From: Glycomyces tenuis DSM 44171
GTDB taxonomy: Bacteria > Actinomycetota > Actinomycetes > Mycobacteriales > Micromonosporaceae
Assembly: GCF_000427885.1 (NCBI RefSeq)
Contig: NZ_ATYW01000004.1
Coordinates: 215,939-279,938, forward strand
DNA: 64,000 nucleotides
Reading direction: 5' to 3'
Part shown: piece by piece, positions 3,643 to 17,688 of the stretch
How the letters are laid out: every line of letters starts with the position of its first letter
How positions within the stretch are numbered: position 1 is the stretch's first letter
Position numbers and translations under genes: made by a program
The notes under the pieces: model-generated
Seen by the model: the letters and a program-made list of their open reading frames with translations, nothing else
What the model was told of the DNA's origin: nothing
Database searches by the model: none

Positions 3643-4823
3643 GCGCACCGGTCCTGGTGATCAACTGCGGCTCGTCGTCGATCAAGTACCAGCTGGTCGA
3701 CGGCGACACCGAGGAAGCGTCGACCTCCGGCGTCATCGAGCGGATCGGACAGTCCGAATCGGTCGTCACGCACACGACCGACGACGGCAAGCGGGTCTGG
3801 AACGAGCACGTGGCCGACCACGCCGCCGGACTCGAGGCGATGGTGCGCGCCTGCGAGGAGTTCGGGACGCCGCTGTCGGACGCCGGGCTCATCGCCGTCG
3901 CCCACCGCGTCGTCCACGGCGGCGAGCGCTTCGTGCAGCCGGTCGTGATCGACGACGAGGTCGTGGACGCGATCGAGGAGCTCGCCGTGCTCGCGCCGCT
4001 GCACAACCCCGGCAACCTCGAAGGCATCCGGGTGGCGCGGCGGCTGTTCCCCGAGCTGCCGCAGGTCGCGGTGTTCGACACCGCCTTCCACACGACCATG
4101 CCCGAACGCGCCCACGTGTACGCCGTCCCCGAGGAGTGGCGCAAGCGGCACGGGGTGCGCCGGTACGGCTTCCACGGCACCTCGCACGCCTACGTCTCCC
4201 GCAAGGCCGCCGAGATGCTCGGCAAGGACCCCAAGCAGGTCAACGTGATCGTCGCGCACCTCGGCAACGGGGCGTCGATCACCGCCGTCGAGCGGGGCCG
4301 CTCGATCGACACCTCGATGGGCCTCACCCCGCTCGAAGGGCTGGTCATGGGCACGCGCTCGGGCGACATCGACCCGGCGATCGTCTTCCACATGCACCGG
4401 AGCACCGGCGCGTCCTTCGACGAGCTCGACGAGGCCCTGAACAAGCGCTCGGGGATGCTCGCGATGACCGGCGTGATCGACATGCGGGGGATCGACCGGG
4501 CCGCCCGCTCCGGGGACCGGGCCGCGGAGCTCGCGCTCGAGATCTACTGCTACCGGCTCAGGAAGTACATCGGCTCCTACATCGCCGCGCTCGGAGGCGC
4601 CGACGCCATCGCGTTCACCGCCGGGGTGGGGGAGAACAGCGCCGAGGTCCGGGCGAGGGCGCTGGAGCCGCTGACGGCCCTCGGCGTGAAGCTCGACGAG
4701 AGCGCCAACCAGGCCGGCGGGCCGATCATCTCGACCTCGGACTCGCTCATCACGGCCATGGTCGTCCCGACCGACGAGGAGGGCGAGATCGCCGCCCAGA
4801 CCGCGTCCCTGCTGCGATCCTAG
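3639..4823 (+). CDS. ackA: Acetate kinase
   Basis: Phosphorylates acetate with ATP, or makes ATP from acetyl phosphate. The 394-residue protein has the normal family length and signatures: VINCGSSSIKYQL at the N terminus, HRVVHGGERF, FDTAFHTTMP, GFHGTSHAYVS, VAHLGNGASITAV and TAGVGENSAEVR. It begins on the ATG that overlaps the pta stop codon. Its stop (4821-4823) overlaps the as-read stop of the opposing SsgA-like gene, which would leave no room for a terminator. If the SsgA-like frame is corrected (see that entry), a GC hairpin at 4866-4889 lies in the gap and could terminate this operon. Confidence 0.95.
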   Translation: MSAPVLVINCGSSSIKYQLVDGDTEEASTSGVIERIGQSESVVTHTTDDGKRVWNEHVADHAAGLEAMVRACEEFGTPLSDAGLIAVAHRVVHGGERFVQPVVIDDEVVDAIEELAVLAPLHNPGNLEGIRVARRLFPELPQVAVFDTAFHTTMPERAHVYAVPEEWRKRHGVRRYGFHGTSHAYVSRKAAEMLGKDPKQVNVIVAHLGNGASITAVERGRSIDTSMGLTPLEGLVMGTRSGDIDPAIVFHMHRSTGASFDELDEALNKRSGMLAMTGVIDMRGIDRAARSGDRAAELALEIYCYRLRKYIGSYIAALGGADAIAFTAGVGENSAEVRARALEPLTALGVKLDESANQAGGPIISTSDSLITAMVVPTDEEGEIAAQTASLLRS

Positions 4824-5443
4824 AGCGGGGTCCGGCCGGAAGGAGGCGGCGTCCTCGCGAGGCGAGGCCCGGTGCGGCCGCGCCGGGCCGGACACCGCTC
4901 CGCGGGAGCGAACGCCGCCCGACCGAGCGGTGCCGCCCCGCGCCGCCCGGACATGCGAAGGGGCGGCCGGTTCCCCGGTCCGCCCCCTTCAATCCGTCCT
5001 CGCCGCGTTAACACCCCTCCGGCGAGCAGCTTCGTCAACGTGGAGTCCAGGTCCACATGCGCCGATTCGCGGCCCCGCGGCACCAGGCTGTACGCCCGTC
5101 TGAGGAACCGCTGCACGACCGCCCGGTTGATCTCGAACAGGGCGTTCCCGTCCGGGGAGGAGAGCGCCAGCGCGATCGACTCGCCCCTCGGCGTCGTCCA
5201 CGGCCAGACCCGCACGTCCCCGATGCCGGTGGGCTCCTCCAGCCCTTTCGCGAGGAGCTCCCGCGAGAAGGACCACGCCACCTGGTCGGCGTCGGAGCCG
5301 TCGGGGTGGAACATGACGCAGACGGCGTACGGGTCGTCCGGGTCGTAGCGCAGGCTCGCGCGCACGCTGACGGTCGCGAAGTCGGGTGCGACGAGTCGCA
5401 TGGTCGTGCCGATGTCGACCGTCGCCGATCGTGCCATGCTCAT
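4820..5443 (-). CDS. SsgA-family sporulation/cell division regulator, tail likely from a frameshift
   Basis: SsgA-like proteins are specific to morphologically complex actinomycetes and help position septa and control sporulation. Residues 1-143 match the whole family, with LRYDPDDPYAVCVMFHPDG, EEPTGIGDVRVWP and ALALSSPDGNALFE, ending at DLDSTLTKLLAGG, where SsgA proteins normally stop. As read, the frame runs on for 64 Arg/Gly/Pro/Ala-rich residues to 4820, overlapping the ackA stop. If the CCCC run at 5014-5017 had one base fewer, a TAA at 5010-5008 would give a 144-residue protein of standard length. I therefore suspect a single-base error or a recent frameshift. The ATG at 5443 is preceded by GGGGGG at about 7 nt. 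Which SsgA-like paralogue it is cannot be told. Confidence 0.85.
   Translation of the reverse strand: MSMARSATVDIGTTMRLVAPDFATVSVRASLRYDPDDPYAVCVMFHPDGSDADQVAWSFSRELLAKGLEEPTGIGDVRVWPWTTPRGESIALALSSPDGNALFEINRAVVQRFLRRAYSLVPRGRESAHVDLDSTLTKLLAGGVLTRRGRIEGGGPGNRPPLRMSGRRGAAPLGRAAFAPAERCPARRGRTGPRLARTPPPSGRTPL
4866..4889. terminator. GC hairpin after ackA
   Basis: GGCCCGG at 4866-4872 pairs with CCGGGCC at 4883-4889, with one further G-T pair. There is no T-tract. It would be an intergenic terminator only if the SsgA-like gene ends near 5008. Confidence 0.35.
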
Positions 5444-6696: not shown

Positions 6697-7671
6697 GTGA
6701 GCGCCGAGCGGCTCCGCGTGCTGTCCTGGCACGTCCACGGCTCCTGGCAGCACTCCTTCGTCCAGGGCGGCCACGAGTACCTCCTGCCGACGCTCCCCGA
6801 CCGCGGCCCGTGGGGCCTGGGCCGGGCCGGCAGGCCCTGGCCGCCGAACGCCGTCGAGGTCCCCGCCGCCGAACTGCGCGAGACCGAGGTCGACGTCGTG
6901 GTGCTCCAGCGCCCCGAGGAGATCGAGCTGGCCGAGCGCTGGCTGGGCCGCATCCCCGGCGTCGACGTGCCCGCGGTGTACGTCCAGCACAACACGCCGC
7001 ACCGCGGCGCGGCCACCACCGAGCACGTCCTGGCCGACCGCGGCGACATCACCGTCGTCCACGTCACCGAGTTCAATCGGCTCATGTGGGACTGCGGCGA
7101 AGCGCCGACCACCGTCATCGCCCACGGCGTCGTCGACCCCGGCCCGCTCTACCAAGGAGAGCTCGACCGGGCCGTCGCCGTCATCAACGAGCCGGTGCGC
7201 CGCGGCCGCGTCGCCGGGGCCGACCTGCTGCCCCGCTTCCGCACCGCCGCCCCGATCGACGTCTTCGGGATCAGAGCCGAGCAGATGCGGATCGACGCCC
7301 AAGAGGGCCGGTTCGAACTGCTCGGCGGTCCCGACCTCCCCCTCGGCGAGCTGCATCGGGAGATGGCCCGGCGCCGCGTCTACGTGCACCCGGCCCGCTG
7401 GACCTCCCTCGGGTTGTCGCTGCTGGAGGCGATGCACCTGGCCATGCCCGTGGCCGTCGTCGCCGCCACCGGGGCCGCCTCGTTCCCGCAGGACGTCGGC
7501 GTCGTCTCCTGCGACACGGCGACGCTGGTGGCCGGGGTGCGCGAGCTGATGAGAGACCGCGAGCAGGCCGTCGCGGCGGGCAAGGCGGCGCGCGAGTACG
7601 CGCTGGCCAACTTCGGCCTCGGCGACTTCCTGCGGCGGTGGGACGCGCTGCTGGCGGAGCTCGCCGCGTGA
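6697..7671 (+). CDS. Glycosyltransferase (GT4-like), heptose locus
   Basis: A 324-residue glycosyltransferase with a GT-B-type C-terminal half: HPARWTSLGLSLLEAM followed by MPVAVVAATG has the acidic residues of the E-x7-E nucleotide-sugar site. The N-terminal half has WHVHGSWQHSFVQGGHEYL and VYVQHNTPHRG, typical of a subgroup I associate with actinomycete heptose/carbamoyltransferase loci. No signal peptide or membrane segment. The GTG start has no clear Shine-Dalgarno. It is followed by another GT4 gene after 17 bp, so the two are probably co-transcribed. Donor and acceptor are unknown. Confidence 0.8.
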   Translation: MSAERLRVLSWHVHGSWQHSFVQGGHEYLLPTLPDRGPWGLGRAGRPWPPNAVEVPAAELRETEVDVVVLQRPEEIELAERWLGRIPGVDVPAVYVQHNTPHRGAATTEHVLADRGDITVVHVTEFNRLMWDCGEAPTTVIAHGVVDPGPLYQGELDRAVAVINEPVRRGRVAGADLLPRFRTAAPIDVFGIRAEQMRIDAQEGRFELLGGPDLPLGELHREMARRRVYVHPARWTSLGLSLLEAMHLAMPVAVVAATGAASFPQDVGVVSCDTATLVAGVRELMRDREQAVAAGKAAREYALANFGLGDFLRRWDALLAELAA

Positions 7672-7688
7672 GCAACCGAGGAGGCGAC

Positions 7689-8870
7689 ATGAAGATCGCA
7701 ATGGTGTCCGAGCACGCCAGCCCCCTCGCCGCCATGGGCGGGGAGGACGCGGGCGGCCAGAACGTCCACGTCGCCCAGTTGGCCGCCGCGCTGACGCGGC
7801 AGGGCCACGCGGTCTCGGTGTACACGCGGCGCGATCGGCCCGAGCCCCCCGAGCGCGCCGAGGCGCCCGACGGCTACGAGGTCGTCCACGTCGAGGCCGG
7901 CCCGCCCGAGCGCGTCCCCAAGGACCGCCTGCTGCCGCACATGGGCGGGTTCGCCCAGCGGCTGCGGGATGCGTGGGCCGCCGAGCCGCCCGACATCGTG
8001 CACGCGCACTTCTGGATGTCCGGGCTGGCCGCGCTGTGGGCCGCCGACGCCGCCGAGCTGCCGGTCGTGCAGACCTACCACGCGCTCGGCACGGTCAAGC
8101 GCCGCCACCAGGGCGAGGCGGACACCAGCCCGCCCGCCCGCGTCCGGCTCGAACGCGACATCGGCGCGCGGTGCGCGGGCGTCATCGCCACCTGCCGCGA
8201 CGAGCTCGCCGAACTCGCCGACATGGACGTCCCCGAGGACAAGGTCGCCGTCATCCCGTGCGGAGTGGACCTCGAGCACTTCACGCCGGTCGGCCCGGCC
8301 GCCGGGCGCGAGGGGCGCCACCGCGTCCTCGCCGCCGGCAGGCTCGTCCCCCGCAAGGGCCTCGACACGACGATCAAGGCGCTCCGGGACCTGCCGGGCA
8401 CCGAACTGCTCGTCGCCGGGGGACCGGCCGAAGGCCCGGTGGAGGGCGACCCGGAGGCGCGGCGGCTGCGCCGCGTCGCCGAGGAGACCGGCGTCTCGGA
8501 CCGGGTGCGCATGCCCGGCCGCATCCCGCACGAGGAGATGCCCGCGCAGTTCCGCTCGGCCGACGCGGTGGTCTGCACGCCCTGGTACGAGCCGTTCGGG
8601 ATCGTGCCGCTCGAGGCGATGGCGTGCGGCGTGCCCGTCGTGGCCGGCGCGGTCGGCGGCATGAAGGACTCCGTCGACGACGGCGTCACCGGCGCACTCG
8701 TCCCCGACGCCACCCCGCAGGCGGTCGCCGCGGCCGTCCGGCCCTATCTGGAGGATCCGGAGCTGCTGCGCCGCACCGGCCGGGCGGGGCGGATGCGGGC
8801 GTGCGCGCTCTACTCCTGGGACGCGATCGCCGCCGAGACGATCAAGGCGTACGAGCTCGCCGCCGCCTGA
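7689..8870 (+). CDS. Glycosyltransferase family 4
   Basis: A 393-residue GT4 enzyme of the MshA/SqdX/sucrose-phosphate-synthase type. GGEDAGGQNVHVAQLAAAL near the N terminus is the acceptor/donor glycine-rich loop, HAHFWMSGLAAL the interdomain region, AAGRLVPRKGLDTTIKAL the start of the donor domain, and TPWYEPFGIVPLEAMACG the E-x7-E site. GAGGAGG precedes the ATG. It lies 17 bp behind the previous glycosyltransferase and runs toward an opposing GT2 gene, 10 bp away. MshA itself is possible on motif alone, but the setting among heptose-sugar genes points to a glycan role. Confidence 0.85.
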   Translation: MKIAMVSEHASPLAAMGGEDAGGQNVHVAQLAAALTRQGHAVSVYTRRDRPEPPERAEAPDGYEVVHVEAGPPERVPKDRLLPHMGGFAQRLRDAWAAEPPDIVHAHFWMSGLAALWAADAAELPVVQTYHALGTVKRRHQGEADTSPPARVRLERDIGARCAGVIATCRDELAELADMDVPEDKVAVIPCGVDLEHFTPVGPAAGREGRHRVLAAGRLVPRKGLDTTIKALRDLPGTELLVAGGPAEGPVEGDPEARRLRRVAEETGVSDRVRMPGRIPHEEMPAQFRSADAVVCTPWYEPFGIVPLEAMACGVPVVAGAVGGMKDSVDDGVTGALVPDATPQAVAAAVRPYLEDPELLRRTGRAGRMRACALYSWDAIAAETIKAYELAAA

Positions 8871-8879
8871 CCCTCGCCC

Positions 8880-9770
8880 TCACCGCGGCGCCGCCTCCGC
8901 CGTCTCCAGCCGCTCGATCGCGGCCTCGAGCTCCGCCGGGAGGCGCCGGCGCCTGGCCAGCACCGCCGGAAGCCGGGCGAGCAGCTCGGCCAGCGCGGTG
9001 GCGGCGCTCCGGTCCCGCAGTGCCGCCGCCGCCAGGGACCTGGTGTCGCGCAGGCACACCCCGAGCGGCCTGCGGTGCCAGGAGGTGAGGGCGGCGTTGC
9101 GCATCTCGCGGGCGCGGCGCCACGCGGTGTCGGGGCGCTCCGCAGAAGGCTGGTGGCGGGCGATGACGTCCTCGGCGTAGCACAGCCGCCAACCGAGGGC
9201 GGCCAGATCGTAGGCGAGCAGCTGCTCCTCGCCGTAGGAATGCAGCGCGTCGCTGAAGCCGCCCGCCTCGACGTACGCCGAGCGGCGGACGACGGCGGCG
9301 CAGGCGAGGAAGCCGAGCACGGCCGGACCGGGCATCCCCTCAGGAGTGCCGAGCGCGCCGCGCGCCAGAGCCTCGTTGAACGGGTCGGGGCGGGCCTCGT
9401 CGCCGACGAGGGCGCGGGCGGCCACCAGGCCGAGCCGCGGATGGGCGTCGAGGAGGTCGGCGGCCCGCGTCAGCGCGCCGCGCTCCCACCACGAGTCGTC
9501 GTCCGCGAAGGCGACGTACGGGGTCGTGACGGCGCGGACGCCCACGTTCCTGGCCGCGGCGCCCTCGTTGCCGCGCAGGCGACGGTAGTGCACGTGCGGG
9601 CAGCCGGCGGCCAGAGCGCGCATCTGCGGCGCGGTGTCGTCGGTCGAGGCGTTGTCGACCACGAACACCTGCGGCGTCGGATCCAAGGACAACAGCTCCA
9701 CAATGCTGCGCTTGAGTTCGGTCGCTCGATTCCTGGTGGCGATCACGACACTGGTCCGTTCGTCGAACAT
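8880..9770 (-). CDS. Glycosyltransferase family 2
   Basis: A 296-residue GT-A enzyme. SVVIATRNRATELKRSI and FVVDNASTDDTAPQM are the nucleotide-binding strand and first acidic motif; YVAFADDDSWWERGAL holds the metal-binding DDD; GEEQLLAYDLAALGWRL holds the catalytic acidic region. The last 60 residues are Arg/Ala/Leu-rich helix without a clear membrane segment. It is transcribed against the flanking glycosyltransferases and divergently from the carbamoyltransferase, sharing a 153-bp intergenic region with it. It likely adds one sugar to the same product. Confidence 0.85.
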   Translation of the reverse strand: MFDERTSVVIATRNRATELKRSIVELLSLDPTPQVFVVDNASTDDTAPQMRALAAGCPHVHYRRLRGNEGAAARNVGVRAVTTPYVAFADDDSWWERGALTRAADLLDAHPRLGLVAARALVGDEARPDPFNEALARGALGTPEGMPGPAVLGFLACAAVVRRSAYVEAGGFSDALHSYGEEQLLAYDLAALGWRLCYAEDVIARHQPSAERPDTAWRRAREMRNAALTSWHRRPLGVCLRDTRSLAAAALRDRSAATALAELLARLPAVLARRRRLPAELEAAIERLETAEAAPR

Positions 9771-9923
9771 GAGAAGCGGATACCCCGATCGCGGCCCCGC
9801 ACACCTGCGCGATCGCCGTAACGGCTCTCAACTGGCCGATGTTTACGAGCGAAGGCACAGGGTAGCTACCGCCTACCGAAGCGACGCGCGATCTTGCGAG
9901 TCCGGTGAACTCGGGGGGCTGAA

Positions 9924-11561
9924 GTGAAGGTTCTGGGTGTCAACGCGGTCTTCCACGACTCATCGGCGGCCCTGGTCGTCGACGGGATGATCGTCGCCGC
10001 GGCCGAGGAGGAGCGGTTCAGCCGCCGCAAGCACGGCAAACGGCCCGTCCCGTTCGCCGCCTGGGAACTGCCCGACCAGGCCATGGCCTGGTGCCTGGCC
10101 GAAGGCGGCGTGGACGTCGGCGAGCTCGACGCGGTGGCCTACGCCTACGACCCCGACGCGGTCGACCACGAAGGCCAGGGCCTCGACCCGCAGTGGGAGC
10201 CGCTGCGCACCACCTACGCCAGGCGGGCGCCGCTGTTCCTGAGCACCGCCCTGCCCGGCCTCGACGCGTCCAAAGTGGTGTTCGTGCGGCACCACGTGGC
10301 GCACGCCGCCTCGGCGGCGCTGGCCGCCCCGTTCGCGGCCGCCGCCTCCGACTGCGCCGTCATCGTCGCCGACGGCCGTGGCGAATGCGCCTCCCACCTC
10401 ACCGGGCAGTACATCGACGGCAAGCTCGTCGAACTGGCCTCCCAAGGGCTCCCGCACTCCCTCGGCCTGCTCTACGAGGACGTCACCGCGCACCTTGGAT
10501 TCGCCCGATCCAGCGACGAATACAAGGTCATGGCCCTCGCCTCCTACGGGACGCCGCGCTTCGAGCCCGAGCTGTCCGAGGCCGTCCACGCCACCGGCGA
10601 CGGCGGATTCCGCACCGAGCCGATCGACTGGGACCGCTTCGCGCCGCGCCGCGAGCCCGACGCCGAACCGACCGCCGCCCACGCCGACCTCGCCGCGAGC
10701 GTGCAGCGCCGCGTCGAGGAGGTCCTGCTCGACCTGGCCCGCTGGACGCACCGGCGCACCGGCGCCTCCAATCTCGCCCTCGCAGGCGGCGTCGCCCTCA
10801 ACTGCGTCGCCAACACCCGCCTGCACGACGAGGGCCCCTTCGAACGCATCTGGGTCCAGCCCGCCGCCGGCGACGCCGGCACCGCCCTGGGCGCCGCCCT
10901 CCACATCGCCGCCGAACTGGGCGACGATCCCGAGCCGATGCGCACCGCCGCGCTCGGACGCGGCTGGAGCGACGAGGCGATCGAGGCCGAGCTCACCCGC
11001 GCCGGCTTGCTCTACGAACGCCCCGACGACCTCGCCGACGTCGTCGCCGCCGCCCTGGCGGCCGACGAGATCGTCGGCTGGTTCCAAGGCCGCGCCGAAT
11101 ACGGGCCCCGCGCCCTCGGCCAGCGATCCCTGCTCGCCCACCCCGGCCGCGAGGAGAACCTCGAACGGCTCAACGCCGTCAAAGGCCGCGAGTCGTTCCG
11201 CCCGATCGCCCCGATGGTGCTCGCCGAGCGGGCGCCGGAGGTCTTCGCGCGCGGCCCGATCCCCTCGCCGTACATGCTGTTCGTCCACGACGTCGACCCG
11301 GCCTGGCAAGGCCGCCTGCCCGCGGTCACCCACGTCGACGGGACCGCCCGCATCCAGACCGTCGACCGCGCCGACCACCCGCTGCTGGCCGCGATGCTCG
11401 CCGGCTTCGAACGCCGCACCGGCCTGCCCGCCGTGGTCAACACCAGCTTCAACACCGCCGGCCGGCCCATGGTCGACCACCCGAGGGACGCCCTCGAATG
11501 CCTCGGCTCGGCGCCGATCGACCTGCTCGCCATCGGCCCGTTCACCGTGAGGCGCCGATGA
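9924..11561 (+). CDS. Carbamoyltransferase, NodU/TobZ family
   Basis: Transfers a carbamoyl group from carbamoyl phosphate through carbamoyl-adenylate to a sugar hydroxyl; relatives act on Nod factors, tobramycin and other glycosides. The 545-residue protein has both family domains: a Kae1-like N-terminal ATP domain (GVNAVFHDSSAALVVDG, EEERFSRRKHG, RHHVAHAASAAL) and a C-terminal YrdC-like part (RAEYGPRALGQRSLLAHP, NTSFNTAGRPMVDHPRDAL). The GTG start is preceded by GGGGGG. The stop overlaps the next ATG, opening a seven-gene run of overlapping or closely spaced genes to 17688. The context suggests it carbamoylates a heptose-containing glycan or precursor. Confidence 0.92.
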   Translation: MKVLGVNAVFHDSSAALVVDGMIVAAAEEERFSRRKHGKRPVPFAAWELPDQAMAWCLAEGGVDVGELDAVAYAYDPDAVDHEGQGLDPQWEPLRTTYARRAPLFLSTALPGLDASKVVFVRHHVAHAASAALAAPFAAAASDCAVIVADGRGECASHLTGQYIDGKLVELASQGLPHSLGLLYEDVTAHLGFARSSDEYKVMALASYGTPRFEPELSEAVHATGDGGFRTEPIDWDRFAPRREPDAEPTAAHADLAASVQRRVEEVLLDLARWTHRRTGASNLALAGGVALNCVANTRLHDEGPFERIWVQPAAGDAGTALGAALHIAAELGDDPEPMRTAALGRGWSDEAIEAELTRAGLLYERPDDLADVVAAALAADEIVGWFQGRAEYGPRALGQRSLLAHPGREENLERLNAVKGRESFRPIAPMVLAERAPEVFARGPIPSPYMLFVHDVDPAWQGRLPAVTHVDGTARIQTVDRADHPLLAAMLAGFERRTGLPAVVNTSFNTAGRPMVDHPRDALECLGSAPIDLLAIGPFTVRRR

Positions 11562-13036
11562 GCACCGTCACCGTCGTCGTGCCCACGGTCGTGAGGCCGA
11601 GCCTGCGCACGCTGCTGCTCGCCCTGGCCGCCGCCGAGGGCCCCGCACCCCGGCGGGTGATCGTCGTCGACGACCGGCCCCGGCCAGCGCCGCTCGACCT
11701 GCCGGACCTCCCCTTCCCCTGCGAGGTCATGCGATCCCACGGCCGCGGCCCGGCCGCGGCCCGCAACGTCGGCTGGCGGGCCGCCGACACCGAATGGGCG
11801 GCCTTCCTCGACGACGACGTCATCCCCTCCTCCACCTGGCTCGCCGACCTCGAAGCCGACCTCGCGCCGCTCGGCGACGACGACGCCGCCTCCCAGGGCC
11901 GCATCGAGGTGCCCCTTCCCGGCGACAGAAGGGCCACCGACGCCGAACGCGGCACCGCCGCGCTCGCCGAGTCCCGCTGGATCACCGCCGACATGGCCTA
12001 CCGGCGGGAGGTCCTCCAGGCCGTCTCCGGTTTCGACGAGCGCTTCACCCGCGCCTTCCGCGAGGACTCCGACCTGGCGCTGCGGGTCGTGGACGCCGGC
12101 TGGCGCCTCGGCCTCGGCGCGCGCCTCTCCCGCCACCCGGCGCGAGACCGAGGCTTCCTCGCGAGCGTCCGCGACCAGATCGGCAACGCCGACAACGCCC
12201 TCATGCGGGCCAAGCACGGCTACACCTGGCGCCAGCGCGCCGGCGAGAGGCCCGCCAGATTCCTCAGCCACCTCGCGACCACCGCGCTCGGCACCGCCGC
12301 GGCCCTCGGGGCGCTGCGAGGCCGCCGATGGGCCCCGGCCGCCGCCGCGGCATGGGGCGTCCAGACCGCCCGCTTCGCCGCGAACCGCATGGCCCCCGGC
12401 CCGCGCACCCCCGCCGAGCTCGCCGACATGGCGCTCTCCAGCGCCCTCATCCCGCCCGTGGCGACCTTCTGGAGCGCGGTCGGCGCCCTGCGGCACCGGC
12501 CCGCGCCGCGGCCCGACGCGGTCCTGTTCGACCGCGACGACACGCTCATCGCCGACGGCCCCTACCTCTCCGACGCCGAGAAGGTCCGGCCCATGCCCGG
12601 CGCCGAGATCGCCATGCGGCGCCTGCGGGCCGCCCAGGTCCTCGTCGGCGTCGTCACCAACCAGTCCGGCATCGCCAAAGGCCTCATCACCCACGCCGAG
12701 CTGAGCGAGGTCAACCGCCGCGTCGACGAACTCCTCGGGCCCTTCGGCGTGTGGAAGGTCTGCCCGCACACCGCCGAGGACGGCTGCCGGTGCCGCAAGC
12801 CCGCGCCCGGCATGATCGCCGCCGCCGCCGCGAAGCTCGGCGCCCGCCCCGAACAGTGCGTCATGATCGGCGACACCGGCGCCGACGTCACCGCCGCCCT
12901 CGCCGCCGGCGCGCGGGCGATCCTGGTGCCCACCGACGCCACACGGCCGAGCGAGACCGCCATGGCCCGCCGCCGCGCCACCGTCGCCGCCGACCTGTGC
13001 GAGGCGGTCAACCTGGCGTTGGGGGACATCGCATGA
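11558..13036 (+). CDS. Fusion: family 2 glycosyltransferase + D-glycero-D-manno-heptose bisphosphate phosphatase (GmhB-like)
   Basis: Residues 1 to about 290 are a GT2 enzyme (VTVVVPTVVRPSLRTL, RGPAAARNVGWRAADTEW, AAFLDDDVIPSSTWL, FREDSDLALRVVDAGW). A membrane-associated or amphipathic stretch follows (about 240-310). Residues about 320-492 are a HAD phosphatase of the GmhB type: VLFDRDDTLIADGPYL (nucleophile Asp), VVTNQSGIAKGL, the zinc-site cluster CPHTAEDGCRCRKPAPGM, and VMIGDTGADVTAAL. GmhB removes the 7-phosphate of heptose 1,7-bisphosphate between the two HldE steps. The join is in one open frame with no sign of a frameshift. Start and stop both overlap neighbours by 4 nt. Confidence 0.9.
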   Translation: MSTVTVVVPTVVRPSLRTLLLALAAAEGPAPRRVIVVDDRPRPAPLDLPDLPFPCEVMRSHGRGPAAARNVGWRAADTEWAAFLDDDVIPSSTWLADLEADLAPLGDDDAASQGRIEVPLPGDRRATDAERGTAALAESRWITADMAYRREVLQAVSGFDERFTRAFREDSDLALRVVDAGWRLGLGARLSRHPARDRGFLASVRDQIGNADNALMRAKHGYTWRQRAGERPARFLSHLATTALGTAAALGALRGRRWAPAAAAAWGVQTARFAANRMAPGPRTPAELADMALSSALIPPVATFWSAVGALRHRPAPRPDAVLFDRDDTLIADGPYLSDAEKVRPMPGAEIAMRRLRAAQVLVGVVTNQSGIAKGLITHAELSEVNRRVDELLGPFGVWKVCPHTAEDGCRCRKPAPGMIAAAAAKLGARPEQCVMIGDTGADVTAALAAGARAILVPTDATRPSETAMARRRATVAADLCEAVNLALGDIA

Positions 13037-14055
13037 GCGGCCGCGTCCTCATCGTCAGGCAGGACAGCATCGGCGACGTCCTGCTCGCCGGTCCGTGCGT
13101 GCGGGCCGTCGCCGCCTCCGGCGCCTCGGTCACCGTCCTCGCCGGACCGCGGGGGGCCGCCGCCGCGGCGCTCCTGCCGGGCACCGAGGACACCCTCACC
13201 TGGTGCGCGCCGTGGATCGACCCCGAACCGCCGCCGGTCACCGGCGACGACATCGACGCGATCCGCGGCGACATCGCGCGCCGCCGCTTCGACGCCGCGC
13301 TCATCCTCACCTCCTTCCACCAGTCGCCGCTGCCGACGGCGATGCTGCTGCGCCTCGCGGGCCTCCCGTGGATCGGCGCGATCAGCGAGGACTACCCCGG
13401 CGCCCTGCTCGACCTGCGCCACCGCGTCCCCGGCGCCCTCCCCGAAGCCGAACGCGCGCTCAGCCTCGCGGGCGCGGCCGGGTACCGCCTGCCCGAAGGC
13501 GACGACGGCCGCCTGGCCCTCACCGAGCCGCTGCCCGACACCGGCCACCTCGGCCTGCCCGAGCGCTACATCGTCGTCCACCCCGGCGCCTCGGCCCCCG
13601 CGCGGCGCATGTCCGTGCCGCGCCTGGCCGCCGCCGTCGACGCGCTCTGCGACGCCGGGCACCCGGTCGTCGTCACCGGATCGGGCCCCGAGCGGCCCCT
13701 CACCGCCGCCGTCGCGCACGGCCGCGCCACCGACCTCGGCGGACTGACCACACTGGATGTCCTTGCCGCCGTCATCGCCCGCGCCGACGCCGTCGTCGCC
13801 CCCAACACCGGCGCCGCCCACCTCGCGGCCGCCGTCGCCACCCCCGTGGTCAGCCTCTTCGCGCCCGTCGTCCCGGCGGAGCAGTGGCGGCCCTACCGGG
13901 TGCCGCACGTGCTCCTCGGCGACCAGCACGCCCCGTGCCGCGGCACCCGGGCCCGGCACTGCCCCGTCACCCGGCACCCGTGCCTCGAGACGGTGGCGCC
14001 CCAGACCGTCCTCGCGGCCGCCGAATCGCTCATGGCCGCCCCGGTCGAAACCTGA
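13033..14055 (+). CDS. Glycosyltransferase family 9 (heptosyltransferase-like)
   Basis: A 340-residue GT-B enzyme of the WaaC/WaaF/WaaQ family, which uses ADP-heptose. RQDSIGDVLLAGPCVRAV is the typical N-terminal motif (R-x-D-x-x-G-D). IVVHPGASAPARRMSV starts the donor domain, and VVAPNTGAAHLAAAVATPVV is the ADP-heptose-binding D/N-T-G-x-x-H motif, with Asn where many members have Asp. A short Cys/His cluster (CRGTRARHCPVTRHPC) near the end is common in GT9 proteins. The gene overlaps the GT2-GmhB stop by 4 nt. It is likely to transfer the heptose made by this operon. Confidence 0.9.
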   Translation: MSGRVLIVRQDSIGDVLLAGPCVRAVAASGASVTVLAGPRGAAAAALLPGTEDTLTWCAPWIDPEPPPVTGDDIDAIRGDIARRRFDAALILTSFHQSPLPTAMLLRLAGLPWIGAISEDYPGALLDLRHRVPGALPEAERALSLAGAAGYRLPEGDDGRLALTEPLPDTGHLGLPERYIVVHPGASAPARRMSVPRLAAAVDALCDAGHPVVVTGSGPERPLTAAVAHGRATDLGGLTTLDVLAAVIARADAVVAPNTGAAHLAAAVATPVVSLFAPVVPAEQWRPYRVPHVLLGDQHAPCRGTRARHCPVTRHPCLETVAPQTVLAAAESLMAAPVET

Positions 14056-14089
14056 GCACCGCCCGACGACGAAGAGAGGAAGGGACAAC

Positions 14090-14680
14090 ATGACCGACAC
14101 GTGCAACGCCGAGCAGCACTGGCGCCGACTCGGCGCCGCCATGGAGCAGCTCCAGGCCGAAGCGCCGCGCGTCCGGCGCTGGGGCCGGCACCTCGCGCGG
14201 ACCCTCTCCGACGGCGGGCGGCTCCTCGCCTGCGGCAACGGCGGCTCCGCCGCCGAAGCACAGCACCTGACCGGCGAACTGGTCGGCCGCTTCCACGCCG
14301 ACCGGCCGCCGTTCTCGGCGATCGCGCTGCACGCCGACACCTCGGCGGCCACCGCGATCCTCAACGACTACGGCGAACACGAGTACTTCGCCAGGCAGGT
14401 CCGCGCGCACGGGCGGCCCGGCGACATCCTCATCGCCCTGTCCACCAGCGGCACCAGCCACAACGTCATCACCGCCGCCAAGGCCGCCCTCCAAGAGGGG
14501 CTGATGGTCTGGGGGATGACCGGGCCCGCCCCGAACCCGCTGGCCACCCTCGCCGACGAGGCCATCGCCGTCGACGCCGCGACCACCGCCACCGTCCAGG
14601 AGGCGCACCTGGCGATCGTCCACGCCCTGTGCGCCGCCTTCGACGACGCGATCGGCGCCGGCTCGGGAGGCGCGACATGA
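14090..14680 (+). CDS. gmhA: Phosphoheptose isomerase (sedoheptulose 7-phosphate isomerase)
   Basis: Converts sedoheptulose 7-phosphate to D-glycero-D-manno-heptopyranose 7-phosphate, the first committed step of heptose supply. The 196-residue SIS-domain protein has LLACGNGGSAAEAQHLTGEL (phosphosugar site), ALSTSGTSHNVITAAKAAL (second Ser/Thr loop) and the C-terminal VQEAHLAIVHALC with the Glu and His expected for catalysis. GAGAGGAAGGG lies before the ATG. It follows the GT9 gene by 34 bp and overlaps hldE by 4 nt. Confidence 0.93.
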   Translation: MTDTCNAEQHWRRLGAAMEQLQAEAPRVRRWGRHLARTLSDGGRLLACGNGGSAAEAQHLTGELVGRFHADRPPFSAIALHADTSAATAILNDYGEHEYFARQVRAHGRPGDILIALSTSGTSHNVITAAKAALQEGLMVWGMTGPAPNPLATLADEAIAVDAATTATVQEAHLAIVHALCAAFDDAIGAGSGGAT

Positions 14681-16053
14681 AGCGGCTCGTGATCGTCGGC
14701 GACGCCTTCCTCGACATCGACGTCCACGGGCGCTCCGAGCGGCTCTGCCCCGAAGCGCCCGTGCCCGTCGTGGACGCCGCCGAAGAGGTCCGCCGCCCCG
14801 GCGCCGCCGGACTGGCCGCCCTGCTCGCCGCCCGCGACTCCCCGCGCACCAGCCTCGTCACCGCGCTCGCCGACGACCGGGCCGGACGGCGGCTGCGCGA
14901 ACTGCTCGAGCCGCACGTCGACCTCGTCGCCATGCCGCTCCAGGGCGCCACCGTCCGCAAGATCCGCATCCGCGTCGGCAACCAGCTCATCACCCGCGTC
15001 GACCACGGCGACGGCCGCGCCCCCACCGGCGAGCTCGACGACGCCGCCGCCATGACGCTCGCCCGCGCCGACGCCGTCCTCGTCGCCGACTACGGCCGCG
15101 GCGTCGCCGAACACACCGGCCTGCGCCGCCTCCTGGCCGAACTGGCGCCCGCCGTCCCGATCGTGTGGGACCCCCACCCCGCGGGGCCGCCGCCCGTGCG
15201 CGGTCTGCGGCTCGTGACGCCCAACCAGGCCGAGGCCGAACGGCTCGCGCCCGGCACCGCCGACCACCGCCGGCTCGCCGAGCACCTGCGGAGCGTCTTC
15301 GCCAGCGACGCCGTCGCCGTCACCCGCGGCGCCCAGGGCGCCACCCTGGCGACCGCGACGCAGACCACCCGGATCCCCCCGCCCGACGACGCCGCCGTCG
15401 CCGCCGAGCGGTGGATCGACACCTGCGGCGCCGGCGACCAGTTCAGCGCCGCCGCCGCGAACGCCCTGCTGACCGGCGGCGACACCCACCGCGCCGTCAC
15501 CGCCGCCGTCGAAGCCGCCTCGCGCTTCGTCGCCGCCGGCGGCGTGGCCGCCCTCCACGGCGACGGCACCGAGACCGGACCCGGCACGGGCGCCGTCGCC
15601 GCCGACGCCTTCGAACTGGCCGCCCGCATCCGGTGCGACGGCGGTACCCTCGTCGCCACCGGCGGCTGCTTCGACCTGCTGCACCCCGGCCACGTCAGCC
15701 TCCTCCGACGCGCCCGCGCCATGGGCGACGCCCTGGTCGTGTGCCTGAACTCCGACGACTCCGTCAGAGACCTCAAGGGCCCCGGCAGGCCCCTCCACAC
15801 CGCCGCCGACCGGGCCAGGCTCCTCGCCGAACTCGCCGTCGTCGACGCCGTCGCCGTCTTCGACGAGCCGACCCCCGCCCGGCTCCTCGAACGGCTGCGG
15901 CCCCACATCTGGGTCAAGGGCGCCGACTACGCCGACCGGCCGATCCCCGAATCGCACACCGTGCACCGGCACGGCGGCGAAGTCGTCGTCGTCCCCACCC
16001 TCGACGGCCACTCCACGACCAAGCTCATCGCGACCATGAACGCTCGCGCCTGA
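14677..16053 (+). CDS. hldE: Bifunctional heptose 7-phosphate kinase / heptose 1-phosphate adenylyltransferase
   Basis: Phosphorylates heptose 7-phosphate at C1 and, after GmhB action, attaches AMP to give ADP-heptose. Residues 1 to about 310 are a PfkB/ribokinase domain with the catalytic motif DTCGAGDQFSAAAANALL. Residues about 325-458 are a cytidylyltransferase-fold domain with VATGGCFDLLHPGHVSLL, VCLNSDDSVRDLKGPGRP and WVKGADYADRPIPE. Order and total length (458) match Escherichia coli HldE. Odd point: the first PfkB signature, GGAAN in typical HldE, reads PGAAG here (VRRPGAAGLAALLAAR), losing the substrate-contacting Asn. No HldD epimerase is seen nearby, so the product should be the D-glycero form. 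Confidence 0.92.
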   Translation: MKRLVIVGDAFLDIDVHGRSERLCPEAPVPVVDAAEEVRRPGAAGLAALLAARDSPRTSLVTALADDRAGRRLRELLEPHVDLVAMPLQGATVRKIRIRVGNQLITRVDHGDGRAPTGELDDAAAMTLARADAVLVADYGRGVAEHTGLRRLLAELAPAVPIVWDPHPAGPPPVRGLRLVTPNQAEAERLAPGTADHRRLAEHLRSVFASDAVAVTRGAQGATLATATQTTRIPPPDDAAVAAERWIDTCGAGDQFSAAAANALLTGGDTHRAVTAAVEAASRFVAAGGVAALHGDGTETGPGTGAVAADAFELAARIRCDGGTLVATGGCFDLLHPGHVSLLRRARAMGDALVVCLNSDDSVRDLKGPGRPLHTAADRARLLAELAVVDAVAVFDEPTPARLLERLRPHIWVKGADYADRPIPESHTVHRHGGEVVVVPTLDGHSTTKLIATMNARA

Positions 16054-16069
16054 ACAGAACGGAGACCGA

Positions 16070-16753
16070 ATGATGCCGGGCAACGTCCTCGTCACCGGCG
16101 GCGCCTCGGGACTCGGCGCCGCCACCGCCGCCGAGATCCTCGCCGCCGGAGGCACACCGCTGATCCTCGACCGCAAGGCGCCCGACGAGAAGGTCCCCTA
16201 CCGCAAGGCCGACCTCGCCGACACCGCGGCCACCGCCGAAGCCGTCCACGAGCTCGCGACCGAGGCCGGGCGCCTCGACGCGGTCTTCACCGCCGCCGGC
16301 ATCGACGCCTGCGGCGCGCTCGCCGACGTCCCCGCCGACGACTGGGAACAGGTCGTCAAGGTCAACCTGCTCGGCACCGCCGCCACCGTCCGCGCCGCCC
16401 TGCCGCACCTCGCCGAAACCCGCGGCAAGGTCGTCACCTGCGCCTCCACGCTCGGCGTCAAGGCCGTCTCCGACGCCACCGCCTACTGCGCCTCCAAATT
16501 CGGCGTCGTCGGCTTCACCAGGGCACTGGCCGCCGAGACCGCCGGCCGCATCGGCGTCACCCTCCTCGTCCCCGGCGGGATGCGCACCGGCTTCTTCGAC
16601 GGCAGACCCGAGCAGTACAGGCCCGCGCCGGACGCGAAGCTCAACGACCCGCGCGACGTCGCCCGCGCCGTCCTCTTCGCCCTCGGGCAGCCGCCCGGCT
16701 CCGAGCTGCGGGAGATGGTCGTCTGCTGCTCCGAGGAGACCTCCTGGCCATGA
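16070..16753 (+). CDS. Short-chain dehydrogenase/reductase in heptose operon
   Basis: A 227-residue classical SDR. VLVTGGASGLGAATAAEIL is the NAD(P)-binding loop; the active site is present as TCASTLGVK (Ser) and AYCASKFGVVG (Tyr-x3-Lys). Asp in LILDRKAP after strand 2 suggests preference for NAD(H). It is too short and of the wrong SDR type to be HldD, which is an extended SDR of over 300 residues. It may oxidise or epimerise a sugar of the glycan. Tandem ATG codons at 16070 and 16073 leave the exact start open by one codon. The stop overlaps the next gene by 4 nt. Confidence 0.85.
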   Translation: MMPGNVLVTGGASGLGAATAAEILAAGGTPLILDRKAPDEKVPYRKADLADTAATAEAVHELATEAGRLDAVFTAAGIDACGALADVPADDWEQVVKVNLLGTAATVRAALPHLAETRGKVVTCASTLGVKAVSDATAYCASKFGVVGFTRALAAETAGRIGVTLLVPGGMRTGFFDGRPEQYRPAPDAKLNDPRDVARAVLFALGQPPGSELREMVVCCSEETSWP

Positions 16754-17688
16754 GCGGCACCGTCCTGGTCCTGCGGGCCCTCGGCGTCGGCGACCTCCTC
16801 ACCGCCGTCCCCGCGCTGCGCGCGCTGCGCAAGGAGTTCGACGGCCGACGGATCGTCCTCGCCGCGCCCGAGCCGCTGCGCGGCCTCGTCGACCTCGTCG
16901 AGGCCGTCGACCGGCTCCACCCGACGCCCGGCCTCGGCGGGCTCGAATGGCGCGCCGCGCCGCCGTCGGTGGCGGTCAACCTGCACGGCGAGGGACCCGA
17001 AAGCCTGCGCGAGCTGCTCGGCGCCGGACCATCGGCCCTCATCTCGCACCGCAACCCCGCCGTGCCGAACGTGCCCGGGGCCCCCTGGAGACCCGAACTG
17101 CACGAAGTCGACCGCTGGTGCCGCCTGCTCGAGGAGTACGGCATCCCCGCCGACCCCACCGACCTCGCGCTTCCTCCGCCGCCCGGCCCGGTGCCGCACC
17201 GCGGCGCCGTCGTCGTCCATCCCGGGGCCGCCGCGCCCGCCCGCCGCTGGCCCGCCGAGCGCTTCGCCCTGGTCGCCCGGCACCTGCGGGACGACGGCCA
17301 CGACGTCGTCATCACCGGCGGTCCCGCCGAGACCGGACTCGCCCGCTCCGTGGCCGAGGCCGCCGGCGTCGAACCGGAACGGGTCCTCGCCGGCCGGACC
17401 GGACTCGGCGAACTCGCCGCCACGGTCGCCGCCGCGCGCCTGCTCCTCAGCGGCGACACCGGTGTCGCCCACCTCGCCACCGCCTTCGGCACCCCCTCGG
17501 CGGTGCTGTTCGGGCCCACCCCGCCCGCGCTGTGGGGCCCGCCGCCGGGGAGACCGCACCACGTCGCGATGTGGGCCGGACGCACCGGCGACCCGCTCGG
17601 CGACCGGCCCGACCCCGGACTGCTCGAACTCGAATCGGAAGCCGTGCTCGAACGGTGCCGCGAGCTGATCCGCCGCCACGGCCCCTGA
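16750..17688 (+). CDS. Second glycosyltransferase family 9
   Basis: A 312-residue GT9 protein, distinct from the one at 13033-14055. Motifs are RALGVGDLLTAVPALRAL at the N terminus, VVVHPGAAAPARRWPAERFA at the start of the donor domain, and LLSGDTGVAHLATAFGTPSAV, here with the canonical Asp of the D-T-G-x-x-H motif. It ends the operon begun at 9924. Two GT9 enzymes suggest two heptose transfers, or one heptose and one other ADP-sugar. Confidence 0.88.
   Translation: MSGTVLVLRALGVGDLLTAVPALRALRKEFDGRRIVLAAPEPLRGLVDLVEAVDRLHPTPGLGGLEWRAAPPSVAVNLHGEGPESLRELLGAGPSALISHRNPAVPNVPGAPWRPELHEVDRWCRLLEEYGIPADPTDLALPPPPGPVPHRGAVVVHPGAAAPARRWPAERFALVARHLRDDGHDVVITGGPAETGLARSVAEAAGVEPERVLAGRTGLGELAATVAAARLLLSGDTGVAHLATAFGTPSAVLFGPTPPALWGPPPGRPHHVAMWAGRTGDPLGDRPDPGLLELESEAVLERCRELIRRHGP

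Follow-up and report, generated by a model that had tools for sequence, protein, structure and literature searches.

A cluster of ten genes in Glycomyces tenuis DSM 44171 probably corresponds to the cwg ("cell wall glycan") operon of Streptomyces coelicolor, and would direct synthesis in the cytosol of a carbamoylated oligosaccharide of the cell envelope that contains heptose in its D-glycero-D-manno (D,D) form. The genes were identified from open reading frames and family searches and occupy positions 6697 to 17688 of the 64,000-nucleotide stretch that we analyzed (referred to here as the window; positions 215,939 to 279,938 of contig NZ_ATYW01000004.1). In S. coelicolor, cwg is a 12-gene operon (sco6179-6190) under sigma-E control, with a cell wall glycan as its predicted product (PMC6767563, PMC5839063). 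Genes SCO6180 to SCO6188 are named cwgB to cwgJ (SCO6184 not being listed in that account), with cwgH described as a phosphoheptose isomerase and cwgI as a bifunctional synthase/transferase (PMC5839063); cwgE has been named a putative heptosyl transferase (PMC5882110). The operon is induced by vancomycin with partial dependence on sigma-E (PMC6767563), several of its genes are reported as upregulated in an argR mutant (PMC5839063), and one ranked among the most stably transcribed genes (PMC4630627).

The reference operon was found through the published cwg promoter and then matched to the window gene by gene. Among 392 genomes of one Streptomyces-type genus, ten contain the promoter with no more than three mismatches and a single one (G582) contains it with none; there, an in-frame start codon lies 147 bases past the promoter, which is the published spacing. 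From the promoter match we infer that this genome belongs to the S. coelicolor group. The 12 genes that follow encode, in order, a decarboxylase/epimerase-type protein, a carbamoyltransferase, a glycosyltransferase of family GT2, a HAD protein, a GT9, two GT4 proteins, GmhA, HldE, a second GT9, and two further GT2 proteins, and the published cwg labels agree with this order. All of the second to tenth of these genes, together with the closing GT2 type, pair with window genes, and the window proteins are 49 to 66% identical to their counterparts. The two arrangements differ in that the window fuses the GT2 and HAD genes, places its two GT4 genes upstream, has one GT2 gene on the opposite strand where cwg has two, includes an additional short-chain dehydrogenase (SDR) gene with no cwg counterpart, and lacks the decarboxylase-like first gene at the locus.

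The layout of the cluster is compact (Table 1). Of the six junctions among the seven genes from position 9924 onward, four are 4-base overlaps and two are gaps of 34 and 16 bases, and the single separate GT2 gene is transcribed divergently from the carbamoyltransferase gene. An earlier note on this DNA had listed these seven tightly packed genes and six glycosyltransferases, one of them fused; family searches located every gene it named and recovered two each of GT4, GT2, and GT9 type, together with the SDR gene, which was missing from its list. The note also mentioned similar Streptomyces loci with no assigned product, in agreement with the cwg operon and the literature searched. Its proposal of a carbamoylated heptose glycan stands as the best reading of the genes, but the claim that this would be a compound class not described for the group does not, since the cwg operon was already predicted to make a cell wall glycan and ADP-heptose has been reported in Streptomyces (PMC10221265). 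The locus type and ADP-heptose in Streptomyces are thus already known; new here are the link between Glycomyces and cwg, the breadth of the gene set across actinomycete families including mycobacteria, an asparagine in one GT9 protein, the patterns of gene fusion, and the predicted sugars.

Table 1. Genes of the cwg-like cluster in the window, with assignments predicted from family, structure-database, and reference-operon matches
Feature	Positions	Strand	Basis
GT4a, GT4-type glycosyltransferase, cwgF-like	6697..7671	+	PF00534 E 1.6e-08; 53% identity to the reference-operon gene in cwgF position
GT4b, GT4 glycosyltransferase, cwgG-like	7689..8870	+	PF00534 E 1.4e-38; 58% identity to reference operon
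Divergent GT2 glycosyltransferase	8880..9770	-	PF00535 E 1.8e-24; 54% and 48% identity to the last two reference-operon genes
Carbamoyltransferase, TobZ/NodU family, cwgB-like	9924..11561	+	PF16861 E 2.1e-63; PF02543 E 6.8e-52; 66% identity to reference operon
GT2 part of GT2-HAD fusion protein, cwgC-like	11558..12508	+	PF00535 E 1.8e-10; 54% identity to stand-alone GT2 gene of reference operon
GmhB-like HAD phosphatase part of the same fusion, cwgD-like	12509..13036	+	NF006506 (GmhB model) E 1e-32, below cut-off; PDB 4pnh E 2.4e-18
GT9a, cwgE-like	13033..14055	+	PF01075 E 5e-20; WaaF 1psw E 1.8e-06
GmhA, sedoheptulose 7-phosphate isomerase, cwgH-like	14090..14680	+	TIGR00441 E 7e-47, below cut-off; PDB 5i01 E 3.6e-39
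HldE, heptose 7-phosphate kinase and heptose 1-phosphate adenylyltransferase, cwgI-like	14677..16053	+	PRK11316 E 9.1e-78 and rfaE domain II E 1.1e-51, both below cut-off; heptose kinase 4e84 E 2.3e-18
SDR, no counterpart in reference operon	16070..16753	+	PF00106 E 2e-36
GT9b, canonical-looking heptosyltransferase, cwgJ-like	16750..17688	+	PF01075 E 1.2e-26; PDB 3tov E 6.9e-18; WaaF E 4.2e-15

Predicted heptose pathway and product

All four domains of an ADP-heptose pathway (GmhA, the HldE kinase, GmhB, and the HldE adenylyltransferase) are present with intact motifs. The solved relatives of GmhA are phosphoheptose isomerases, the HAD part matches a D,D-heptose bisphosphate phosphatase, and sequence matches in the structure database relate the first domain of HldE to a solved heptose 7-phosphate kinase and the second to a putative cytidylyltransferase. 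In alignments limited to rows of 85% coverage or more (one duplicate removed), the GAGD and HxGH motifs of HldE are kept in all 101 relatives, the DxDxT and C-x-H...C-x-C motifs of the HAD domain in all 79, and YxxxK of the SDR in 79 of 79 rows. GmhA would convert sedoheptulose 7-phosphate to heptose 7-phosphate, the HldE kinase domain would form heptose 1,7-bisphosphate, and the GmhB-like domain would strip the 7-phosphate, with ADP-D,D-heptose both made and consumed in the cytosol. No HldD (heptose 6-epimerase) scores above its cut-off in the window genome, where the best match reaches 100.9 bits against a cut-off of 274.6; from this the activated sugar is expected in the D,D form, and is likely ADP-D-glycero-D-manno-heptose. 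The pathway had been called complete from the sequence at first sight, which is borne out as far as ADP-D,D-heptose and no further.

According to a commentary on Tang et al. 2024, use of CTP and UTP goes with an arginine within the motif (F/L)xxGxSTT (PMC11461863). At that place the window HldE, whose motif is an inexact fit to the published one, has His, and the 101 aligned rows have Tyr (48), Arg (40), or His (13). The HAD domain is variably arranged across 86 loci, being fused to GT2 in 58, standing alone in 21, and fused to GT9a in 7.

Both GT9 proteins pass the PF01075 cut-off; the solved relative of GT9a is WaaF, and those of GT9b are a GT9 protein, WaaF, and WaaC. Heptose would be transferred by GT9b, and perhaps by GT9a too, and the GT4 and GT2 proteins would lengthen the chain with other sugars. 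The carbamoyltransferase has both Carbam_trans domains, and its solved relatives are PDB 9s2t (E 5.6e-87), the novobiocin carbamoyltransferase, and TobZ. It keeps HHxxH and GD(A/S)G, residues that presumably have a metal-site role, in 79 of 79 rows, and would modify a hydroxyl, perhaps on heptose, as is thought for WapO of Pseudomonas. The inner core of Pseudomonas lipopolysaccharide (LPS) may be the closest chemical precedent by analogy, as it likewise draws on ADP-heptose and GT9 transferases and carries a carbamoyl group on heptose, placed by the putative transferase WapO (PMC8005017). WapO is likened to the window protein by description and not by sequence, and the two Pseudomonas core heptoses are L-glycero-D-manno and sit on lipid A and Kdo, in contrast to the D,D form expected in a genome with no HldD over the cut-off. 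A carrier or exporter encoded elsewhere in the genome would deliver the finished oligosaccharide to the envelope; an envelope location is proposed because the S. coelicolor copy is a known target of the envelope-stress response.

We note that two other Glycomyces clusters, L033 (genome G015) and L034 (G020), have two adjacent GT2 genes in place of the single divergent GT2 gene of the window, like the end of the Streptomyces reference operon.

Further sugars are suggested by recurrent neighbors of the core genes, which were surveyed across 85 loci (the named ones, five from Glycomyces, and the reference operon) with one member of each family profiled. An extended epimerase/dehydratase family lies beside the core in 66 of the 85, and proteins of the UDP-glucose dehydrogenase type do so in 36; a third family, whose profiled member matches polysaccharide pyruvyl transferases over a short stretch, is there in 23. 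The epimerase/dehydratase member shares 65% identity with the first reference-operon gene and matches UDP-glucuronate decarboxylase with E 2.7e-94, as against 9e-38 for the next solved enzyme, so that hosts with this decarboxylase-like neighbor probably use xylose or glucuronate as an additional sugar. Together with D,D-heptose and a carbamoyl group, one of these may be among the predicted building blocks. A six-taxon table lists xylose among whole-cell sugars and itself draws no tie to the operon (PMC8289206).

Points against an envelope glycan, and other possible products

The proposal of an envelope heptose glycan draws on families and solved relatives for every step, on the intact motifs, on the cwg match, and on the recurrence of the gene set. 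Several observations weigh against it. First, the HldE, GmhA, and GmhB scores fall under the NCBIfam equivalog cut-offs, so that these are divergent members of their families, which limits certainty on the sugar. Second, the conserved Asp of GT9b (Asp236 in 88 of 88 relatives, aligned with the conserved Asp of WaaF) is replaced in GT9a, where 89 of 89 relatives have Asn258; the two GT9 proteins may thus differ in donor or role, and the Asn form may mark a GT9 subfamily that uses another donor. Third, no exporter, polymerase, or ligase is among the recurrent nearby families surveyed in the 85 loci, and no chemical structure of any cwg product was found in the open-licence literature searched. 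Fourth, most Glycomyces genomes are without the cluster: a close HldE is present in 5 of 22, the window genome and 4 of the 21 others, and the cluster is therefore not essential.

Two further points concern the cwg match itself. A cwgA-type first gene (decarboxylase/epimerase) was not seen at the window locus, and its family shows no Glycomyces locus among the matches listed; a cwgA relative (55 to 57% identity) is present elsewhere in all 22 Glycomyces genomes searched. We treat this lack as gene-content variation, because 66 of the 85 loci hold the cwgA family and the others do not. In addition, a sigma-E-type promoter, AAC-N16/17-CGTC, was not found within 400 bases upstream of the carbamoyltransferase, GT4a, and GT2 genes (window, L033, L034, and L036) or of the carbamoyltransferase and GT4a genes (L035), although other promoter forms are possible. 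Sigma-E control is a property of the S. coelicolor copy. A looser form of the motif does occur in excess within 300 bases upstream of GT9b (16 of 88 loci; shuffle mean, 2.2) and of the SDR gene (16 of 79; mean, 1.9), but we set this aside as a promoter signal because the upstream genes abut or overlap and those 300 bases are mostly coding. The excess is smaller for the stretches before GT4a (5 of 80; mean, 1.7) and before GT2 (6 of 72; mean, 2.1); in S. coelicolor the promoter lies upstream of cwgA.

An alternative is that the locus makes a small secreted specialized metabolite, a carbamoylated, heptose-containing glycoside comparable to septacidin or hygromycin B. ADP-heptose is a precursor of both compounds in Streptomyces (PMC10221265), occurrence of the locus within genera is patchy, and the carbamoyltransferase, among solved structures, is nearest to antibiotic tailoring enzymes. 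However, the flanking genes profiled (citrate synthase, phosphate acetyltransferase, acetate kinase, SsgA-like, O-methyltransferase, sensor kinase, and desaturase) are housekeeping or regulatory, with no antibiotic scaffold genes among them, and a set with six glycosyltransferases is conserved across many families and genera, unlike the septacidin and hygromycin B clusters, with which the comparison was by description only. The S. coelicolor copy, moreover, sits in an envelope-stress regulon. We consider a secreted metabolite unlikely, though it deserves to be kept in view.

That the product is a soluble cytosolic oligosaccharide serving as a stress protectant is a poorer prospect. No clear membrane segment is apparent in the operon proteins, which are only weakly hydrophobic in a hydropathy window (top mean, 1.89, against 2.56 for the adjoining sensor kinase), and the lack of a recurrent exporter among the surveyed families would fit a product that stays in the cell. 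GT4b resembles MshA (244.5 bits against a model cut-off of 462.5) and PDB 6kih (E 2.8e-66), the latter of which we take to be Tll1590, a sucrose-phosphate synthase; both would be enzymes that use small phosphorylated acceptors. In one study of S. coelicolor, salt increased cwgA (PMC13011467). For a small solute, six glycosyltransferases plus a carbamoyltransferase are nonetheless a large number, and induction by vancomycin suggests the envelope. Least probable is that the substrate of the GmhA and HldE relatives is a different sugar phosphate and that the cells form no ADP-heptose, as the sub-cut-off scores and the invariant Asn of GT9a would allow, since GmhA, HldE, and the GmhB-like domain co-occur in a conserved order and as a trio with intact motifs fit the ADP-heptose pathway.

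Distribution across Actinomycetes and within Glycomyces

The putative heptose glycan locus recurs widely. The same genes are clustered in 18 of 20 regions around HldE of relatives (the other two hold a different heptose cluster). Scanning with 15 aligned HldE proteins gave at least 509 confirmed loci, of which the best 80 were kept, a sample that leans toward close relatives; 61 of these loci are longer than 20 kb and the remainder are shorter. With presence scored at 38% identity or more, the best 80 contain GmhA in 78, GT9a in 71, GT9b in 69, GT4b, the carbamoyltransferase, and the SDR in 66 each, HAD in 65, GT2 and GT4a in 63 each, and the divergent-type GT2 in 49; the SDR is absent, for example, from locus L143. 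Co-occurrence of the locus genes exceeds chance, and the gene-neighborhood check proposed in the earlier note finds the set in most of the 80 named loci as well as in the 18 regions. Named hosts include Nocardia, Amycolatopsis, Prauserella, Mycobacterium, Actinomadura, Streptosporangiaceae, Streptomyces, Micromonospora, and Blastococcus.

In 296 genomes sampled evenly from the class, relatives of GT9b (E of 0.001 or less) are present in 85, and in 41 of 106 genera, counts that refer to GT9b alone and not to the whole set; 79 of the 85 match at E of 1e-25 or less, and the remaining six could be GT9 proteins of another kind. For HldE, relatives were found in 35 of the 148 genomes of one genus (g23; 1e-80) and in 45 of 150 of another (g56; 1e-60). 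We take these genera for Mycobacterium and Streptomyces, respectively, because the loci of G043 (g23) and of G173 and G582 (g56) group among named loci of those genera in a quick tree. The tree was built from four concatenated proteins for the 76 rows that have all four, after dropping L055 (a duplicate of L036), L051, and L052.

With somewhat less than an even chance of being right, we suggest that a carbamoylated heptose glycan, derived from ADP-D,D-heptose made by the host, is common to a sizeable minority of Actinomycetes genomes, among them many of the Mycobacterium-type genus and nocardiae, and that it probably also contains xylose or glucuronate in many of these hosts. Such a glycan would be an undescribed envelope class that echoes the LPS inner core in bacteria free of LPS. 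If ADP-heptose is made, these Gram-positive hosts would carry a molecule sensed by mammals via ALPK1, and the precursor could be visible to that receptor pathway.

One genome of the Streptomyces-type genus (G468) encodes two full-length HldE relatives, separated by about 1.8 Mb. Two genomes of the same family as the window genome hold a second, divergent heptose cluster (L051 in G035 and L052 in G029) whose HldE is 35 to 36% identical to that of the window; in L051 it is adjoined by an MFS transporter, a GT2, and a GT9 (PF01075).

Within Glycomyces, the cluster lies between the O-methyltransferase and sensor-kinase genes in the window genome, G015, and G018. In G020 it adjoins the sensor kinase, with the other flank lost at a contig end, and in G006 the fetched stretch around the cluster has neither flank. 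The kinase/O-methyltransferase site was read in 14 of the 21 relatives, none of which has the cluster there. At 12 of these 14 sites (G006 included) there is no cluster gene except for weak SDR matches (28 to 31%), and the other two have leftovers, GT4b in G003 and GT4b with GT9b in G009, in genomes with no close HldE (L178, L179); G012 also has a GT4b relative and no close HldE. Loss from a cluster-bearing ancestor appears to fit these patterns better than recent gain, and arrival in the window strain alone is not favored, as three other Glycomyces genomes hold the cluster by the same kinase and two hold leftover genes there. Descent from Micromonosporaceae copies is likewise unsupported, as the five Glycomyces rows of the quick tree branch with Mycobacteriaceae, Nocardia, and Pseudonocardiaceae (SH-aLRT 97), apart from Micromonosporaceae. 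The sensor kinase was considered as a cwg-specific regulator and rejected; it is found in 21 of 22 Glycomyces genomes, whether the cluster is present or not, and is therefore not part of the cluster. Just upstream of the flanking O-methyltransferase, an SsgA-family gene (sporulation, cell division) lies on the minus strand at positions 4820 to 5443, and both genes are kept at the site in all 14 Glycomyces regions read.

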